Assembly (NCBI GenBank): GCA_025558095.1 | Contig: JAIVFI010000035.1 | Span: 310,001-374,000, forward strand | Direction: 5' to 3' | DNA: 64,000 nucleotides | DNA from: Hyaloraphidium curvatum | Taxonomy: Eukaryota; Monoblepharomycota; Hyaloraphidiomycetes; Hyaloraphidiales; Hyaloraphidiaceae | Shown here: positions 49,351 through 59,803 of the stretch, one piece after another | How the letters are laid out: each line of letters begins with the position of its first letter | Numbering within the stretch: the stretch's first letter is position 1 | Program-made: the position numbers and the translations under genes | Notes under the pieces: model-generated | Seen by the model: only the letters and a program-made list of their open reading frames with translations | Databases searched by the model: none | Told to the model about the DNA's origin: nothing

Positions 49351-50122
49351 TCAGCCCACCTCGATGTTCCTCGCGAGGTCGCTCGGCGTCCGCCCCTCCG
49401 CGTTCCGCGTCGTCAGCAGATTCAGCAGCGCATCCTTGCTCTGCTTCGCCGCCGCGTGCTCCAGCAGCAGCTCCGCGCACTTCGCCGAGCCGCCCCACGC
49501 GGCCGAGTGCAGCGGCGTGTCCCCCAGCTTGTTCTGCTGGTCCAGCACGGGGTCCTTGGCCAGCAGCATCGACACGCATTCTGCGTGGCCGGCGCGGCAG
49601 GCCCAGTGCAGGGGGACGTTGCTCGCCGAGTCCAGCTCGTTCACCGAGGCGCCGGCGGCGAGCAAATCGGCGAGGAAGGCGGTGTTGCCGCGCTTGGCGG
49701 CCTCGTGGACGGGGAAGTCGATCCGCTGGGTGTTGTCCCCCACGTACTGCGGGTTCAGGGGGCAAGACAGATCGGGTTGCCGGGTGCAGGGCACGAGACA
49801 GGTCGGGTTGCCGGGGTGGGGACGCGTCAGATGGGTTCCGGGGTCTGCGGCGTCGCGCGGGCCCACGTTTGCCGGCACCAGGCCCTTCCTCTCCCCAATC
49901 TGGCAGAGCCACCAGTCGTCGCTCTCCTTGCTCAGCACGCTGCGATGGCCGTGAGGCGCGTCCTCCGGGGCCGGCGGCGGAGGCCCACGTGATCACCTCC
50001 CCGGCGGAGAAGGAGAGCATTCGCTCATCGGTGGGCTCGTAGTCGTACATCGCGACCACGGACATGAGCGACGGCCGCCGCACTGGCCGCCGCGGCGGCG
50101 GGGGTCTCTTCGCGTCGGCCAT
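49351..50122 (-). CDS. SH3 plus ankyrin repeat protein (OSTF1-like)
   Basis: Exons 50122..49989, 49939..49867 and 49746..49351 give 200 residues. After a proline-rich start (MADAKRPPPPRRPVRRPSL) the SH3 domain reads VVAMYDYEPTDERMLSFSAG, then DDWWLCQIGERKGLVPANYV, formed by two in-phase introns of 49 and 120 nt. Three to four ankyrin repeats follow: DFPVHEAAKRGNTAFLADLL, NVPLHWACRAGHAECV and TPLHSAAWGGSAKCAELLLE. Osteoclast-stimulating factor 1 has the same order and binds signalling partners. The longer intron contains a short tandem repeat (CGGCAACCCGA then CGGCAACCCGATC). The gene is divergent from the transposase-Fanzor element, whose readable frame begins 61 bp away. Confidence 0.85.
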
Positions 50123-50183
50123 CGCACTCAGCGGAGCTGTGGGCGGGCAAGGGGTTTCCCAGAGTAGGACCGGGACAGAGTAG

Positions 50184-53100
50184 TTTCACACACAGCGGGA
50201 CGCGGTTCGGCTCAAGCAGACCGGCAAGCTTGGCCCGGACGAGATTGCTGCTGTACTCGCAATTCACCGAACGACGTATTTCCGTTGGATCCGCCGATGT
50301 GGGGCTCAGACCGTTCCGGACCATCCCCGCAAGGCCTTCCGCAAGGTGTCCGACGAAATGGTCCGGCACGTAGTTGACGAGGCCAAAGCTCGCGTCCGCG
50401 TGACGCAAAGGGAGCTCGCTGCTGACCTGGCGGAAAAGTTTGGCGTTTTGGTGTCGCAGCAGCATATCTCGCGGCTGCTGAAGGCCAACAGGGTCACGAG
50501 GAAGAAGCTCACCATTAAGAGCGCCGAAGCCCTGAAACAACCCGAGCGGCACCGCATGTTCCACGAGAGGGTCACTTCCTTTGATTTGGGGCGCCTAGGT
50601 GCCTTGGACGAGTCCTCATTCCAACTCAACGATCCGGGGCGCTTCGGCTACTCGGAGAAGGGGACTCCCGCCGTCGTATACCTGCCAGGGAACCGGGGCC
50701 CCAAGGTGACCCTTTGCCTCGCCATCTCACCCACTTCGCGACCCGGTAATCACACTGGAAACGTGATCTCGTACCAGATCTACAGCGGCAACATGAACAC
50801 CGAGAGGTTCTGTGCTTTTCTCAAGACTATTCGCGCCGGGGCTTGTGGGTCCGAGTCCCTGGGCGTTATCCTGGACAATGCGGGTTTCCACGGCTCTCCT
50901 CTGCGGGCAAGGAAGACCACGGACGGCACGGCAATAATAAAGAACCTCTCGGGCAAGTCGTTCCTTGCGGTCCAGGCCGTAGCAAAGGCCAACAATCTGA
51001 GCCTCATCTACCTGCGACCGAGATCGCCGGAATTTAACCCGACCGAGTACGTGTTTGCCACGATCAAGAACCTCGTGAGGCGGGACTGCCCCAGGACGGT
51101 GCCGGATCTCGTCCGGTCCATCGAGAGGGCCATTCAAATCGTCGGCCACGGCGATCTGATGGCGACGTTCCGGCACTGCTTGAAGCTAAGCGAGGCTGAG
51201 TTTGTGCGCATCGCGGAATCCGCGTCCGCCGGCAAATGTGTGGCGCGGAAGGTCACACTACAAGGTCAGATCTCTGCCTTTGCTTCTCCGGCTCCTCAGA
51301 CGTGCCCTTCCGCGATGGAGGGCGCAGCAGCGACCCAGACCGAAGCAAACGCGGCCGAGCGGCTCGCTGAAGAGGTGGACTGCCATGACGGTTGCGCATC
51401 GGGCATGCAGACCGCGCTGACTCACGACAACGCCCACTCCGAGCAGGCTCGCAACCTCGGCGTCGCCCACATCAACCCGCACCAAAAGCACACTTTGCTG
51501 ACCCTGAGGGAAGTTCTCCACGTCGATGGTTCGGCGAGGGAATTCTTTGGGCCGTGGAACGACTTCACGGACTCCGCTCAAAGGACCGCGGGCTTCGACG
51601 CTGCGGACGTCCTCGGGGGCCTCTCCAACCTCGGTGAAGCTCCTTTTGAGTTCATCTGTCAGCGGGTGGCATCGGGTCGGGGGTACAAGCTGGAGCGCGA
51701 GCTTTTCGTCGCGCGCCTCCGGAACATCGTCGCCCGGCGGCGCCGGGTCGCCCCCAGTCTGATCGGACCAGACGCACCGGCACCTCCCTTTTTCCGCCCC
51801 GCGGACGATGGCGCGGATCTGGGACCGCCGTCAGCCCCCGACGTCTCCATCTCCCAGCTGGATAACCTCGCCCGCTATGCCGACGTCCCACCGGAACTTA
51901 ACGTCTCGTTCAAGAAAGCCAGCCGCGCCGCGTTGAAACAGCTGTTTCCGCTCTCAGCCCTTGCAAACGACACCGTGCTGGACGAGAGGTTCGCCATCCT
52001 CCTATCGGGCCTTGTACGAAACGGTCGTGGACCAGAATGGCTACGTGCGCTCGCTGTTTCTCTCTGGGGACAGCTCGGCCCGGCCGGGAGGGCACGCATG
52101 GACAGCTTCGAAACATCCGAGACAGCACGTCGTGCTCTGCATTATGTTCACCAGCCCATTTCGAAGGTCTGTCGGTTGGAGTACCTCGAACGCGCGGCTT
52201 CGACCGAGTCTTTGCCAAGGAACCTTAGGCAGATACTGGAGGAAGCGTGCCGCACGCTGAAGGACCAGCAGGGCCGCTCGCTTTTTGATGCGTCGCCCGG
52301 CCTGGAGTACTTCCTTGCTTCGCTCTCCCTCCCGCAGCGATGCAAGATAGTCATGGCGGCGCGTTTGCCGGATAGTGTGGCGAGTCGCAATGCGGAAGGG
52401 CGCAAGAGATTCTTCGATTGGGCGGTGTGGAACCCGATGGCGGCCAACGAGGAGGCCCTCGCCATCGAGAATCCGGGTTCCGTTCCCGTGCTGGTGTGCA
52501 ATCTCCTGTCGAGCAGCCCCGCAATCCCAAACTGATTTTTGCCCCGGCAGCTGCTTTCGTTCCCGGGCCTTTTCCAGATGAGCCCGGGCGTACCTGGACT
52601 GGATGCAGAGGGCGATAAGCTGCTGGCAACCCTGTTCCTGAAGGCGGAGCAGCTCGGGTGGGAACACTCTTCCATGGTGACGCTGCGGCTGCTGGAGTCG
52701 GGGCCCAAGATGCGCGATTTTACCCTGGACTTGTGCGGTATGCCCGCGCTGGTGCGCGGTAGCAACCCCGAAGCACGGCAGGAGGCCGCGCGCACCGCGC
52801 TCGACGCCAAGCTCCACTTCCTCGCGGAATCCGTTGGACTGCTGGACTTCGGCCGTATCCAGAAGCGGGATTGTCCGCTCTGTTCCTTCAGTGTGCAGGT
52901 GGAAGGCGAAGTCCCGGCGAAGGCTGGGCGGCGGCGCAAGGTCGCGGCGTCGGGGATGGTGGCTGACGGAGCTGCGCGGGAGCGTGTCTATGACGCCGAG
53001 CTTCGGCTCCTCCACCACGTCAAGGGTGCGCACCTCACCTGCAGAGCGTGCCCGGGGAAGGGACATCAGTTCGACCTCGAGAGTGAGTTCCGGCAGCATG

Positions 53101-56100
53101 TCGAGGAGAACCACCGTGGGGCGTGAGTTGCACCGCGCTTTCCATGCATGCCTGGGACCGATGCGAAGCTGACCGCCGCCGCGGACAGTTTGGTCGCCCC
53201 AAGGAATCTCACCACGTCGTTCGGCCAGTTCATTGCCAACGCACACTACATTGTCCCGTTCGCGTCGACAAACCTCAAAGCCAACATTCCTACGGGCCTC
53301 GGCGGCTCGTCCTGCCCTTTCTGTTTCGCCGGTGGCGGGAGGCACCGGCAGGAGTGCTCTCCGAAGCGGCGGTGGGTCGCGCTCAACGGCTTCCTCGCAC
53401 TTGGCGACCCCCAGCACGAGCGATACAAGACGATGACGGAGCTGGCCGTCGAGTGGTTCCCGGCGGCCGAGGTGTGCCACCCATGGGCGCGGGGCCCGTA
53501 CGAGCAAGTCGGGCCCCTCATCACCAAGGCCTGCACCCTCGCCGCCATCTTGTTCAAGATCATCTGGACCAAGATCTTGTTGCAGATCCACAACAAAGAG
53601 CTCCCGGACCAAGACGGATCCGTCACGCAGGACATGCTCGCCAGCTTTCCCCCGTCTTACGTCGCAAAGATTGCCATCCACGCCGTGCTTGGTGCCGGCC
53701 AGATGTCCGCCGCTGTTGGAACCCGCCGCGCGGGAAAGCAGAAGTCGGCCGGGCTCGGTGCTGGGGCGAGATACTCGGGCCATTCGGGTGCGCCAGGAGT
53801 GGAGCAGCTTGTGGACGGCGGTCCGGACCTCGGAGCCAACGACGACGATCGAGACGAGGTGCTCGAGGACGTTGACTTCGAGGACGATGACGACGCGATG
53901 GCCGAGGACCAGGCCGGCGCCAAGATCTTGGCCGACTTCTTGCACGGCGAGCTGGATCAGATTGAGGACGAGGACTTGGTTACGGCTGAGGACACCCCCG
54001 ATCTCTCGCAGGTTGCTGATCAGGGCGCACCGTCCGTTCTCACCGTCGCGGAGCACAACGCAGCGGCAAAGCTTGTCCGCAAGGCGGCCGTTGCTGCGTT
54101 TGCAGAGGCGCGGGAACTTGTGGGCGAGACGTACGAAAAGCTCAGGCCGCTTTTCGTGCAGGGACCTTTGCTCCGCTATGCCGAGCAGGTCGCTTTCAAC
54201 CGAGCTCGAAGCGTGCCGCAGCGGCTGCTGACTGCGCTCAAGGTTCTCATCCGTCGCTTCCTACGCGGGGAGGTGAACGCGGGCGTCGGCCGGAGGCGGA
54301 TTGGCCCAATCCTCAGCTACGCTCTGGCAAAGCTCGGATATGGGGACGACGACTTCTCCAATTTCCCGTTCGAAAGCGCATTTGGCTGTGGTCTTGCCGA
54401 GGCCACGGAGCTCAGGGTCGGGCTGGGGAGGCTTTTCCGGCCGTTCAGAGGCTTGCAGCTGAACCGGATCGTTGACCTCCGGGATTCAAAACAGAAGCCG
54501 CCGGTGCCGGCAACCGTTTCGCAGCGGAGGGTTATCGCTCGGGTCCTGCAGGACAAGCAGGCGGGCAACCCCGTGGCGGCCGCGGTGCGAACCGTGAACC
54601 TGCCGAAGGGCAAGCCGCGCGGAAAGGTCGACGCGGAAACGGAGGCGGTGCGCAGCTACCTCCAGAACATTTGGGAGACGCTGCCGCGGGCCTCACCTGC
54701 GGAGAAGGCTGACTTGCGAAAGGTGGAGCTGCAGGAGCTGAGGGACTGGGTGGTTGCAAACCGTCTACAGCTTCGGAGCATCCCCTTCCGCTACCCGGCC
54801 GTGACCACGGCAACGATTCGGTCGACAGAGCAGAAACCCAAGTTCTGGGTCCCCGAGCACGCCGAGGACATGAACGAGGCGGCGGCGGCGGCATTGGTGG
54901 GGCAGAACCGGCCCCACTGGGAAAGCGAGAAGCTTCTGGTGGCGCGGATGAGCGAGTATGACCTCGACAAGTGTCGTTCATCCACGAACCCCGCGGACGA
55001 AGCCTTCGGCTTCCAGATGTGCTTCATCGCCCTGCACGAGCTCGAAAAGCAGGACGAGGCGCTGAAGAAGAGGGCCGCGTCCGCGGCTGCTGCACTGCCG
55101 GAACCTGGAACGGCGCGGAGGACGAGCACCGCCAGGGACCCCGATTCAACCCCAACTTTCCCAACCATTTCAACTGCTCCGGTCAAGGACAGGGAGGCTT
55201 CGAACAAGACCAGGAGGGCCCGCAACACGTGGCGGCCGCACCGCGTCGAGAAGCGGCATTACAGCAAGAATGGCTCCCCGAAGCGATGGCACGGGTTCGT
55301 CGTGAGCTTCCGTAAGCGCCGACCGCAGCCGGGGCCCGAGGGACTCGCCAAGAAGGAGACCATGGAGACGAAGCGGCGGGAGCGCAAGGCGGCCGCCGCC
55401 GCCGCGATGGCGGGGCTTGGCGCCGCCCAGACCGGCAAGGAAAAGGCAGCCTCGTGGGCGCGGCGGAAGCTTCGGGCTGCGGTCGCCGAAATCAGCTTGT
55501 CCCCCGTGACCGTCTACATCTCGGCCTCGGATCTGCCCGAGTTTTTGTCCAAGCTGGGCGTGGAGGTCGCGCCTGGCATCGACACCTCGCGCGTTGACTC
55601 GGACTACCTATTCGGCCACCTGCTCAACGGCGGCAACCAACTCGTCAACGAGGACCGGCTCTTCCGCCTCCGTCAGCAGGGCAAAGTCTCGGCAAGGGGC
55701 CATGCCGCCGCCACGCAGCCCATCTATCGTCGCACCGCGGACGTTCTGAGGTACTCCGGCGTCCGGGGCATCTATCATTGCGGCAGCACCCTGGGCATTC
55801 TTAACGAAGAAGTCTCCTTCGTGGAAAAGGTCTCGTTCCAGCAGTCGCAGCAGCAGGAGCGGCAAAACACGACACAGGACGTCGAGCCGCCAAAGCGCGC
55901 AGCGCATTCGCCAGCAGCCGCGCCGGCTCCTCCTGTTCAAACTCGGCCCACCGTCTCCGTTCCCGCCGCAGCTCATGTGCCCGCCGGTCTTGCTGCTTTC
56001 GAAGTGGATGTTTCGTTCCCTCGCGATGTTCCGATGGATCCCTACCCGCCGCTCTACACCGGTCCATGGCTGCCAAACGGCGATCCGGACCCGCCGTGCG

Positions 56101-58550
56101 ACATGGCTGTCTTCGATGGTGGGCATTTTGCTCAGTGACGCACGGGTTCGGAGGCTGATCGGATCCTCACTTTTCCAGGCCAGAATCGGATTTGGCATGG
56201 GGGCATGGTCTACTACCTGCAGGCGACGGCCCAAGGGGACGAATCGGTCCCGATGGATTGGGAGCCCTCTTATTGTGCCAGCAGCAACCTTAACTTCACC
56301 ACCATGCCTTCCGAGCCTCCGGCGGACTGCGGCATCCCCGCCGCGGTCCCGCCGGAACCCCCGCCCTTTTTCTCCTTCGTCGAACCACCAGCCTCGACTT
56401 CTCTCCCTGCCTCCATTCCCCCGGAACCGCCCCCGCATTGGGTGCACGACCCGTGCTCGTGCTGTCAAGATGCCGCCTGCAAGGCCGTGGACTGTGCGCC
56501 CAACGTGTTCGCGCCCCTGAGCTCGGGGCACAACGACCCTCCCTGCGCGACTGTCTCGCCCGGTGACTCGGTGCCCGAGACTTCTGTGCATCCATGCGCG
56601 GCCCTTCCTTTCCCCGACTTCTCGCCGCCACTTCCTTCCCCGTTCCTTTCTTGCTTCCCTCCCGAAGTCGTCGTTTGCGCGGTCGAACCGTCGCCGCCGA
56701 CGGTAACGGTCGAGGGCAAGTTCGCTGCCCCCGTACCTCCTCAGCTGGCCCCGACCCCGGTTCCGCTCCCGCCGCGTTCTGCCGAGCCGTTGCCGCGGCC
56801 CCCGGTCGACTTCAAGACTGGCATTCCCGTCTACTACCTCAGCCGCCCTGACCATGTGTCCGTGCTGGCACCCAATCTCCTGCACATGCCGACGCAGGCG
56901 GAAATGTTCGAGCGGGCCGAGCGCGGCGAGCCAGTGGAGGGCGGGGTCGTCGACGTGGATCCGAATCGCTGGTTTCTGGCTGTTGCCAACCGCCGCGTCG
57001 ACGTGCGGCTCGTTGCCAAGAGCCTGAACCCCGGGCCGAACGGACGCTACGACTTCGCCAACAGTCATCTGCCGGGGACAACGGAGCGCATCACCGTGAC
57101 CAATGCCGACGGCACCAAGTCGCACTACGTGCCGAAGCGGGCGAACCCGTCATAGGCCGACGGTTCCGTCAGCTTCGGGAGGATCGTCGGCTTCCACCTA
57201 GAGCACTCCTGCTCCGATACTAAGCGGATCGCAAGGTCTTTCGGTCCGTCGCCGCCTGCCGCTGGAGCGTGCAGACACCACCCGCTCTGGGAGCCCAAGA
57301 TCTCGGAGTTCAAGCCGCCGGCGCCCGATTCGCGCCCCAACGACGCTGCAAAGGCGGAGAAGCACGCTCGGCGCAACGTCGAACTGTTCCCGACCCCTGG
57401 CGGCTGCACGGACGAGTTTGGTGCCAAGCTGTGGGGCGAGGTCGCTGGTGCCGGCCGTGCGGGGACCCCGGCGCTGCCGGAGCTCATCCTCGGTGTTCCG
57501 GCCAAGCTCGACCGCCGCCTGTGCGGCTACGACAAGGCGGCCGCGCGTCTGAATGCCACCAAGCGGACCACCATGCTGGACGTCAACGATTGCGAGGGCA
57601 ACCCTGTGCAGAAGTCTCTCCACGATTTCGAGCGCGACCTGCCCTCTCAACGCACAACGAACAGTGCAGCCTTCTCGGACTACACGAGGGCGCTGCTGCC
57701 ACAACTCGACCGCATCCTGGACGTCTACTGTTCCGGAGAACGGAGGTGGGCAAGCCAATCCCTGTGGCAACGACTTCGCTCACGCATCCTGCAGCCTGGA
57801 TCGTGTGCGCACGATTCGCCGGCGCCGCGAGGTCCTCAGCTGGATCTGTCGCGACATGTGTCGCAACCCGTATTCGGGCAAGTACGATCCACAGACGACC
57901 ATCGCATACGGCGCCGCGCGATTCGGCCATGCGAGCAAGGGCGGCCCGGCCTCCCGGATCGTTCGCTTCAGGGCGGAGCTGGCCAAGGCCGGGATCATGG
58001 TCTTGGTCAACGAGTACCTCACGTCCCAAATGTGCAGCTGGTGCGGCAGCCGCCGTGATCATCCGACTCGCCTGACGTCCTTTCCAGCTGCAAGACCACC
58101 TATGTCGTCGGAATCCGGAACCCCGGCTCCAAGGGCGAGGTGCGCGGGGTGAAATACTGTCCCCTCTGCCGCCGCTTCTGGATGCGCGACGTGAACAGTG
58201 TGCACTCCATGGAGCACCTCTTCTGGTTCGGCCTCATCACCGGAGGGGAGCGCCCCTGGCCGTTCAGGCCGGACACCAGGAAGCCGAAGCCGCAGCCCAA
58301 GCTCCGAGCTGGGACTGGTGCAGCGCCGCGCAAGTCCGCGGGTGAGCGCGCTCGCATTCGCGACGGTCATCCCGAGCGTCATCCCGAGCTGATCCGGGAG
58401 CTCCAGGTGCCGCCACAGGCCGCAAGCGTACGGCCGCAAGCGCCGCGAATGGGTCGGTCAAGAAGCTCAAGCCGGCAAGCTGACCTGGCCGCGGAAACAG
58501 TTACAAGTTGGCGTGCCATGCACCGCGTGGGCGCCATTGCATTTGCTTGA
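50184..58550 (+). mobile_element. Tc1/mariner-type element carrying a Fanzor nuclease
   Basis: The whole 8.4-kb interval is occupied by one transposon-derived coding unit, inserted between an SH3-ankyrin gene and an MscL gene. It has a DDE transposase at the left and a Fanzor (TnpB-like) nuclease at the right. Published surveys describe Fanzor1 proteins inside several eukaryotic DNA-transposon families, including Mariner-type ones, so the pairing fits. I could not find terminal inverted repeats or a target-site duplication by eye in 50123-50183 or 58551-58691. The true element borders are therefore undefined, and the copy may be incomplete or fixed. Confidence 0.8.
50184..58550 (+). CDS. DDE transposase - Fanzor (RuvC) fusion-like protein, seven exons
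   Basis: Proposed exons 50184..52493, 52551..53122, 53189..56118, 56179..57095, 57156..57745, 57795..58040 and 58088..58550 form one frame of about 2675 residues. Numbering is from 50184. Residues about 1-105 hold two helix-turn-helix units (GPDEIAAVLAIHRTTYFRWI; TQRELAADLAEKFGVLVSQQ). The transposase triad is D142 (LDESS), D231 (LDNAGFHGS) and E288 (NPTEYVFATIK). The middle has C2H2-like fingers (RDCPLCSF; CRACPGKGHQ with H-x4-H; SCPFCFAGGGRH) and an acidic linker. The nuclease part has RuvC-I D2198 (VVDVDPNRWFLAV), RuvC-II E2513 (VLVNEYLTSQMC), a C-x2-C / C-x2-C zinc ribbon (second pair CPLC) and RuvC-III D2556 (FWMRDVNSVHS). All introns are 33-66 nt class with local donor types. There is no in-frame ATG before 50358, and a TAG lies at 50181. 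A two-gene model (second start 53148) is the alternative. Confidence 0.72.
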
Positions 58551-58691
58551 TCGAGGTGGAGTCCGTCAGGGACCGCCTTTTATTCGCAGGCTCGATGATG
58601 AACATTGCTGCTAGGCCGCAAAGGATTGCGGCACAGTGGGCACAGTAGCAGTTTCTGAGAGTGTCTAAGGCATCTGAGGCAGCTGGCCCGA
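58551..58691 (+). ncRNA. Candidate guide-RNA (omega/fRNA-like) region with perfect hairpin
   Basis: This 141-bp stretch directly after the Fanzor stop and before MscL holds a perfect 7-bp stem. GCCGCAA at 58615-58621 pairs with TTGCGGC at 58626-58632, with loop AGGA. CACAGT follows twice. Guide RNAs of TnpB and Fanzor are usually encoded at or just beyond the 3' end of the nuclease gene, so this is the first place to look. Assignment as RNA is inference, and a transcription terminator or promoter hairpin would look the same. Confidence 0.3.
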
Positions 58692-59803
58692 ATGTCTTCG
58701 ATCTCGATCGATCCGCCGCCGTCCGAGGGCGGCGACGCGCCTTCCGAGGCGGGCAGCGTGGAGGCGCTGGGCGCGCCCCCGCCCGGCCCGCGCCCGGCCG
58801 CGTCGCCCAACCCGTGGCTGTCGGACGACTCGCTCGCCAATGCATTCGCCGACGTGCGGCCCGCCGCGGGGCCGCCGCACGGCGCGTCGCAGTCGTCGAT
58901 CGCCTCGCTGCCGGCTGACCGGCCCGCGCCGTCGCCCGCCCCGTCGTCGGACTCGCTCGTCTCGTCGGCATCGCCCCCGCGGCTGGCAGTGCTGCCCGCC
59001 CGCGCGCGCCCGCGCAGCGTGTCGCGCTCGTCGATGGTGCCGGACGGCGACAGGAAGCCCGCGCGGCAGCCCAGCGACCACGCCGCTGCCGGCGCCTTCC
59101 CCATGCCGCGGCCCGCCCGCGCGCTGTTCGACTTTGTGCTTGGCCTGCTCGGCCGCAGCAGGTCGCCGGCCGAGCAGTCGCAGCTGATCGAGCAGTCGGT
59201 CAACGCGACGATCAAGGTCTGGAGCCAGTGGAGGCAGTTCAAGTCCTTCGTCAACCAGGGCCGCATCGTCGAGACCTCGATCGCCGTCGTCATTGGCGAC
59301 TCGTTCAAGGACGTCGTGCGCAGCTTCGTCAATGACGTCCTGCTCCCGCCGATACAGTGGTTCACCGGTAGCGCTCGCAGCTGCCCCTCTCGCGCCCCGT
59401 CCCTTGACGCCCCGTCGCAGGCGGCTCCTCCTTCTCCATGCACTTTGTCCTCCGCCGCGGCCGCACCCCCGGCAAACCCTACGTCACCCTCGAGGAGGCC
59501 CGCGCCGACGGCGCCCTCGTCTTTTCCCTCTACTCCTTCGCCGACAAGCTCTTCAACTTCTTCGTCGTCGGGGTGGCGGCCTACTACCTATTGCGGAGTG
59601 GGTACCCGAACCGGCATTGGCTCCGACATCCGCTGACAGACTCGCGGTCCGATCCAGGCTTCAAGTACTTTTTCCACCGCTACATCGAGCCCGAGACCAG
59701 GGACTGCCCGTATTGCTTCTCCAGCATACCCAAGAAGGCGACTCGGTGCGCGTCGTGCACGAGCGCCGTGGAGCCGCAGACGGTGTACTACCCGCGATAT
59801 TGA
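58692..59803 (+). CDS. MscL-type mechanosensitive channel with N-terminal extension and zinc ribbon
   Basis: Exons 58692..59367, 59421..59597 and 59658..59803 give 332 residues. The MscL core has KSFVNQGRIVETSIAVVIGD and SFKDVVRSFVNDVLLPPIQ, the first helix and pore-lining segment, and FNFFVVGVAAYYLL as the second helix. A disordered, Ser/Pro/Ala-rich extension of about 150 residues precedes it. The C-terminus adds a zinc ribbon (CPYC, then CASC) that is not part of bacterial MscL. The last intron (60 nt, GTGGGT) is in frame, so without RNA its removal is only probable. The channel opens under membrane tension. The protein is in the family found sporadically in fungi, and location in plasma or organelle membrane is unknown. 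Confidence 0.85.

Follow-up and report, generated by a model that had tools for sequence, protein, structure and literature searches.

The stretch of DNA analysed here, hereafter the window, comprises 64,000 nucleotides (nt) of the Hyaloraphidium curvatum genome (assembly GCA_025558095.1, contig JAIVFI010000035.1, positions 310,001 to 374,000, forward strand). At window positions 50183-58664 it holds one copy of an 8.5-kb transposon (8.46 kb per copy), here called family F1, with a predicted spliced gene in which an IS630-type transposase is followed in the same polypeptide by a Fanzor-like nuclease. A DNA search of the source genome (31.9 Mb in 55 contigs, GC-rich) retrieved ten near-identical F1 copies, all but one full length and each with different flanks. 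The genome also holds five copies of a second family, F2 (one of them in L061), with the same order of parts, and two older single-copy elements on contig C2, F3 and F4, in which transposase and Fanzor follow one another in the order and orientation seen in F1. Other copies in the same genome, which a preliminary description of the locus had proposed looking for, are thus present. F1 appears to have been mobile recently, and its copies indicate that it is the whole unit that moves. The right end of sequence L054 was taken from L004.

Five successive stretches of one frame are open in the window between 50184 and 58058 (783, 196, 1003, 338 and 300 codons), and they are broken by stops at 52533 (TGA), 53124 (TGA), 56136 (TGA) and 57153 (TAG). 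The preliminary description had read these breaks as short spliceable gaps whose removal keeps the frame each time. This stands for the first three stops, which fall inside introns 1 to 3 (57, 66 and 60 nt), all of them frame-preserving. It does not stand for the TAG at 57153, which is a substitution specific to this copy and not an intron. Two further introns, 4 (49 nt) and 5 (47 nt), shift the frame, and after their removal the gene runs to a TGA at 58548-58550, the right-hand limit originally proposed.

In the resulting gene model, which lies entirely on the forward strand, exon 1 (50201-52493) encodes the IS630-type transposase, with a helix-turn-helix (HTH) and a DDE_3 domain up to about 51210, and then a C-terminal helical extension of about 430 amino acids (aa). 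Intron 1 (52494-52550), whose TGA sits within a branch-point-like CTGAT, is followed by exon 2 (52551-53122), which encodes two zinc-finger-like CxxC...HxxxxH units. The phase-2 intron 2 (53123-53188; GTGAGT...CTGAC...ACAG) leads to exon 3 (53189-56118), with a CCHC knuckle and a long region that has no Pfam match and that we take as the N-terminal half of the Fanzor. Beyond intron 3 (56119-56178), exon 4 (56179-57745) encodes a proline-rich stretch and RuvC-I (DPNR), recognised in the four-family alignment. Intron 4 (57746-57794) separates it from exon 5 (57795-58040), which carries RuvC-II, its Fanzor-type glutamate standing six residues ahead of the zinc ribbon (NEYLTSQMC), and intron 5 (58041-58087) from exon 6 (58088-58550), which encodes the zinc ribbon, RuvC-III (RDVNS) and a basic tail. 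In most of the introns a branch-point-like CTRAY lies about 14-35 nt upstream of the acceptor. The MscL-like host gene next to the element has a 53-nt intron (59368-59420) in the same style.

The gene can be read without interruption in L009, a natural F1 copy, where it begins with ATG CTT CTG AGC, 23 nt before the position equivalent to window 50201, and encodes 2,697 aa, free of stops through five GT..AG introns (57, 66, 60, 49 and 47 nt) to the TGA at 58550. The whole frame is open in seven of the ten F1 copies (L002-L007 and L009), with splice dinucleotides intact wherever they are readable, and several copies retain all their catalytic residues. Set against the other nine copies, the window copy proves to be defective within a family that is otherwise intact. 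About 140 bp have been lost at a copy-specific deletion junction (50196-50200), and with them the 5' leader and the ATG, and the window copy alone has a TAG nonsense codon at 57153-57155 where the nine others have AAG (TCC AAG). Since both a start codon is lost and a nonsense codon gained, this copy could be moved at most by the products of other copies. Its right end, GTTTCTGAGAGTGT (58651-58664), appears to lack the AG before the final C and TA, intact copies ending in GTGTAGC before TA.

The F2 frame encodes 2,623 aa and has seven introns. Five of these correspond to the F1 introns both in phase and in their place in the alignment; the other two, present in F2 only, were picked from several candidates. 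The F2 counterpart of intron 1 is 59 nt long and its exons lie in different frames, so that only splicing joins them. Protein identity between F1 and F2 is 35-71% depending on the segment, and nonsynonymous divergence (dN) is below synonymous divergence (dS) throughout: 0.28 vs 1.66 in the transposase, 0.77 vs 1.62 in the helical extension, 0.72 vs 1.82 in the finger exon, about 0.70 vs about 1.4 in exon 3 (35-36% identity), 0.61 vs 1.83 in exon 4 and 0.25 vs 1.28 in the RuvC and zinc-ribbon part. The ratio dN/dS is about 0.17-0.5 in all segments, linker included, at a dS that is near saturation, and these values indicate that the linker is under purifying selection. The Cys and His residues of the exon 2 fingers are kept in F2; the CxxC...HxxxxH and CxxC-H-C patterns found in exon 2 and at the beginning of exon 3 are common to F1 and F2, with a similar arrangement in F3. 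In F4, four consensus introns link the transposase frame, itself frameshifted, to the Fanzor frame. Because intact copies exist, introns are shared between F1 and F2, dN is below dS and the order of parts recurs in F3 and F4, we conclude from sequence comparison that this gene architecture is old and conserved, and that the fusion is not a chance frame. The one-frame fusion of transposase, C2H2 fingers and Fanzor initially proposed is thereby supported, its frame and its intron places and phases being kept in F2.

The identity of the left part is clear. It matches the NCBIfam IS630 model (NF033545) with 123.5 bits against a cut-off of 100 (E 1.1e-35) and Pfam DDE_3 with 55.9 against 28.6 (E 5e-15), in agreement with the Tc1/mariner/IS630 assignment made at the outset. 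The catalytic triad residues lie in LDES, LDNA and NPTE in F1 and in LDET, IDNA and NASE in F2.

The right part had likewise been called a Fanzor, and most of the active-site features are those of a Fanzor-like nuclease. Fanzors have a rearranged active site with an alternative glutamate before the zinc ribbon, and their RuvC-I aspartate usually stands in DPG (PMC10711439). An alignment of F1 to F4 shows in all four families a RuvC-I aspartate (in DPNR), a glutamate six residues before the first zinc-ribbon cysteine, two CxxC pairs and an RD, which lies five residues past the last zinc-ribbon cysteine. The ExxxxxxC pattern of the alternative RuvC-II glutamate is thus found in F1 to F4, and the pattern [TS][TS]xx-C4 zinc ribbon-x(5,50)-RD is matched with TSQMC in F1 and F2, SSQKC in F4 and SSANC in F3. 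The zinc ribbon of F4 scores above the cut-off for PF07282 (32.3 vs 26.3), and at the right end of the window copy the Pfam match to a TnpB-type zinc ribbon is weak. A profile search of solved structures placed LaTranC, the mimivirus TnpB-like L79 and Guillardia theta Fanzor1 in the top ranks, the last of these weakly (E 0.06). By analogy with TnpB, the Fanzor part would carry out RNA-guided DNA cleavage.

F3 (L066/L043/L041) and F4 (L067/L045/L040) differ unevenly along their length: their transposases are about 92% identical, their nuclease parts about 47% and the middle about 30%. This contrast suggests that elements have swapped their 5' and 3' halves. Additionally, residues of about 619-789 of the 1374-aa F4 frame (L067:2313-6434, reverse strand) gave a weak match to OTU-like cysteine proteases (GDCLFESVS; E 0.03, below the cut-off); it is located between the finger part and RuvC and is degenerate in F3.

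In the window a TA, the target-site dinucleotide (50181-50182), precedes the left terminal inverted repeat (TIR) GTTTCACACACAG (50183-50195, forward strand), which is common to all ten F1 copies, and nine of the ten right ends read GAGAGTGTAGC followed directly by TA. Compared by eye, the F1 TIRs GTTTCACACACAG and GCTACACTCTCAG match at 9 of 13 positions and the F2 TIRs GTCGCACACAT and GCTACACACAT at 8 of 11. F1 insertions have TA on both sides in four of ten cases and TC on the left with TA on the right in the remaining six; for F2 the left junction is TA in three of five copies and the right junction is CA. Three F1 copies with a left TA carry deletions of differing length just inside the left TIR. 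Near the right end, a 37-nt block (58545-58581, forward strand) that overlaps the F1 stop codon is 92% identical between F1 and F2 within DNA that can otherwise hardly be aligned, and it was found only in the 15 F1 and F2 copies. It can be folded into a hairpin (GGTGGaGTCC, loop, GGACCGCC) followed by four T residues, the stem being identical and the loops different in the two families, and it could form part of a guide-RNA scaffold or act as a 3'-end signal. When the left end and the hairpin were used to look for short non-autonomous copies, the copies already known were the only ones to come up.

We found that F1 and F2 insertions are tied to a motif in the host flank. In the window this is AAGGGGTTTCCCAG (50149-50162, forward strand), 34 bp upstream of the element, and across the ten F1 left flanks the motif AAGGGNNT begins 34 bp before the element, exact in five copies and with one mismatch in two more. 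Its column score of 62 compares with a highest value of 38 among 2,000 random sets; the motif was first spotted by eye and tested afterwards, and the null consisted of random window DNA, not of promoters. The sequence AAGGGGTTTCCCNG has four genomic sites, two of which are F1 insertion sites at the same spacing. In F2, the three copies that have a junction TA show GCGTCGATC or GCGCCGATC beginning 31 bp ahead of the element, and the motif lies at 16 and 28 bp in the two copies that lack this TA. Orientation relative to the motif is fixed in both families (flanks L021-L030 and L031-L035). The sequence GCGTCGATCAC is over-represented in the genome (79 sites, vs 6 for a reversed control) and so may be a host promoter element.

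The preferred reading, to which we give a probability of about 0.72, is that a single spliced gene of an IS630/Tc1/mariner-superfamily transposon encodes a polypeptide of about 2,700 aa with transposase, helical extension, zinc fingers and Fanzor1-like nuclease. Sequence evidence indicates that the spliced frame is one and conserved, and we infer that it yields one polypeptide in the cell. On the proposed mechanism, the transposase part would excise and insert the element, with the zinc fingers or the helical extension helping to pick targets at a fixed distance from the motif. The Fanzor part, carrying an RNA that derives from the element's right end, would cut empty donor or allelic sites, and repair would then restore the element and maintain its copy number. 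Through the fusion, movement by cut and paste would be linked to a retention guided by RNA. If intron 1 were left unspliced, the product would be a transposase of about 785 aa on its own, and this might serve as a switch. A bifunctional cut-and-target enzyme, as suggested in the preliminary description, is plausible.

Several points weigh against this reading. RuvC-I reads DPN in all four families, where nearly all Fanzors have DPG, and about 337-340 residues separate RuvC-I from the zinc ribbon in F1, outside the D-X(125,275) spacing of the published Fanzor1 motif (Bao and Jurka, PMC3627910). The candidate guide RNA consists of the conserved hairpin alone, and the retention role is drawn by analogy to TnpB. 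AlphaFold models were too poor for a fold search (pLDDT, the predicted local distance difference test, was 38 for exon 1 and 44 for the F4 nuclease part). Lastly, a methionine in exon 2 (KMRD/PMRD) common to F1 and F2 is a possible internal start, and separate promoters, internal starts or proteolysis could split the product, as could intron retention. A 2A-like peptide at ENPGS before intron 1 was considered and rejected, because F2 does not conserve it and its final Pro is missing.

The exon 2 methionine is also what speaks for the best of the alternatives, which we nevertheless hold to be unlikely: that the transposon carries two adjacent genes, one for a transposase and one for a Fanzor whose N-terminal part is long, as in the Mariner elements with Fanzor1 described by Bao and Jurka, their shared frame being incidental or read through only rarely. 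The in-frame stops between transposase and nuclease lie only inside introns that are conserved in place and phase between F1 and F2, and this, together with the 59-nt intron 1 of F2, disfavours two genes. Selection on the linker and the similar chaining of F4 also count against them.

Two further proposals concern target choice. It is decidedly doubtful that nuclease and DDE transposase on one chain jointly choose the target, so that insertion takes place a fixed distance away, at a site that is programmed or specified by sequence. Improbable to a still greater degree is RNA-guided transposition, in which the Fanzor module and a guide RNA would choose the target and the fused transposase would insert at a fixed distance, in the manner of CRISPR-associated transposons. 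The presence of both activities on one polypeptide and the fixed distance and orientation from the motif in both families would suit it. However, a scan of the F1 and F2 elements with a target-motif matrix found nothing above chance, the single strong F2 match being the flank itself, and this speaks against a guide encoded by the element. The right flanks, where a Fanzor guide would be expected to originate, are unlike the motif; the motif is short, degenerate and like a protein site; and GCGTCGATCAC resembles a host motif. An apparent match between the F1 motif and the right end of the element itself (GCAAAGGATTGCGG) was rejected, as it is not above chance in the matrix scan. Because the fixed-distance motif is absent from the element's own DNA, the data suggest a target choice directed by protein, which a host protein could mediate.

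That the long frame is decayed or due to chance in a GC-rich genome, and encodes no protein, is very hard to credit: the window copy does lack an ATG and carry a TAG, and long shadow frames are present (such as one of 739 aa on the opposite strand, 52041-54260), but seven copies are intact, dN is below dS in every segment and the catalytic residues are kept in four families.

The genome contains other sequences of related kind. Distant transposase and Fanzor-like zinc-ribbon matches lie 17-23 kb apart in the same order and orientation at C13:321476/344096, C15:359155/378582 and C23:314189/297272, and these pairs are possibly larger relatives, or else chance neighbours. Fanzor/TnpB-like zinc-ribbon matches without a nearby matching transposase occur at C14:724568-725122, within a 972-codon open frame, and at C5:336026-336172. 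A further transposase family of about 45% identity (L036 and L037, at C5:421650 and C23:314189) has a long C-terminal extension in the same frame, the L036 open frame being 822 aa. Viral contigs scanned with nuclease and transposase profiles contained no relative. The window copy is flanked by an OSTF1-like gene (SH3 and ankyrin repeats; 49351-50123, reverse strand) and by the MscL-like channel gene (59200-59803, forward strand), both assigned by eye.

The role of Fanzor nucleases for their transposons is an open question (PMC10432273). A covalent joining of transposase and Fanzor that is kept across diverged families argues that both act in the same complex or step, and the F1 and F2 fusions offer defined mutants and splice forms with which the Fanzor role could be probed. 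If it is true that the fused finger region sets targets at a fixed distance, the protein would be a natural site-directed DDE transposase. In the literature searched, whose scope did not take in Repbase or Jiang et al. (2023, Sci Adv), we found no transposase-Fanzor fusion, Mariner and Fanzor1 being described as separate proteins.

Like other IS630/Tc1/mariner elements, the present ones have an HTH and DDE_3 domain, the DDE residues, short TIRs and, in part of the copies, a TA target; they differ in the C-terminal fusion of more than 2,000 aa and in that a motif 31-34 bp away accompanies the insertions. With CRISPR-associated transposons and Tn7 they share insertion at a constant spacing and in a constant orientation relative to the target that is recognised, but they have no Tns proteins, nuclease and transposase are on one chain and there is no sign of an RNA-chosen target. 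The Fanzor1 nucleases SpuFz1 and GtFz1 (Saito et al. 2023, PMC10432273) resemble the right part in their RuvC with an alternative glutamate before a C4 zinc ribbon, in the RD motif and in the expectation of a right-end guide RNA, but they contain no transposase, and RuvC-I is here DPN and farther from the zinc ribbon. The closest parallels are to the Fanzor1-carrying Mariner elements PGv-1 and PUl-1 (Bao and Jurka 2013, PMC3627910), which likewise combine a Mariner-like transposase with a Fanzor1-type protein within a single element, have short TIRs and target TA, and among whose relatives transposase and 3' halves have been swapped. In those elements the two proteins are encoded separately, whereas in the H. 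curvatum elements both would be encoded, in about 2,700 aa, by a single spliced frame that also includes zinc fingers and a long linker.

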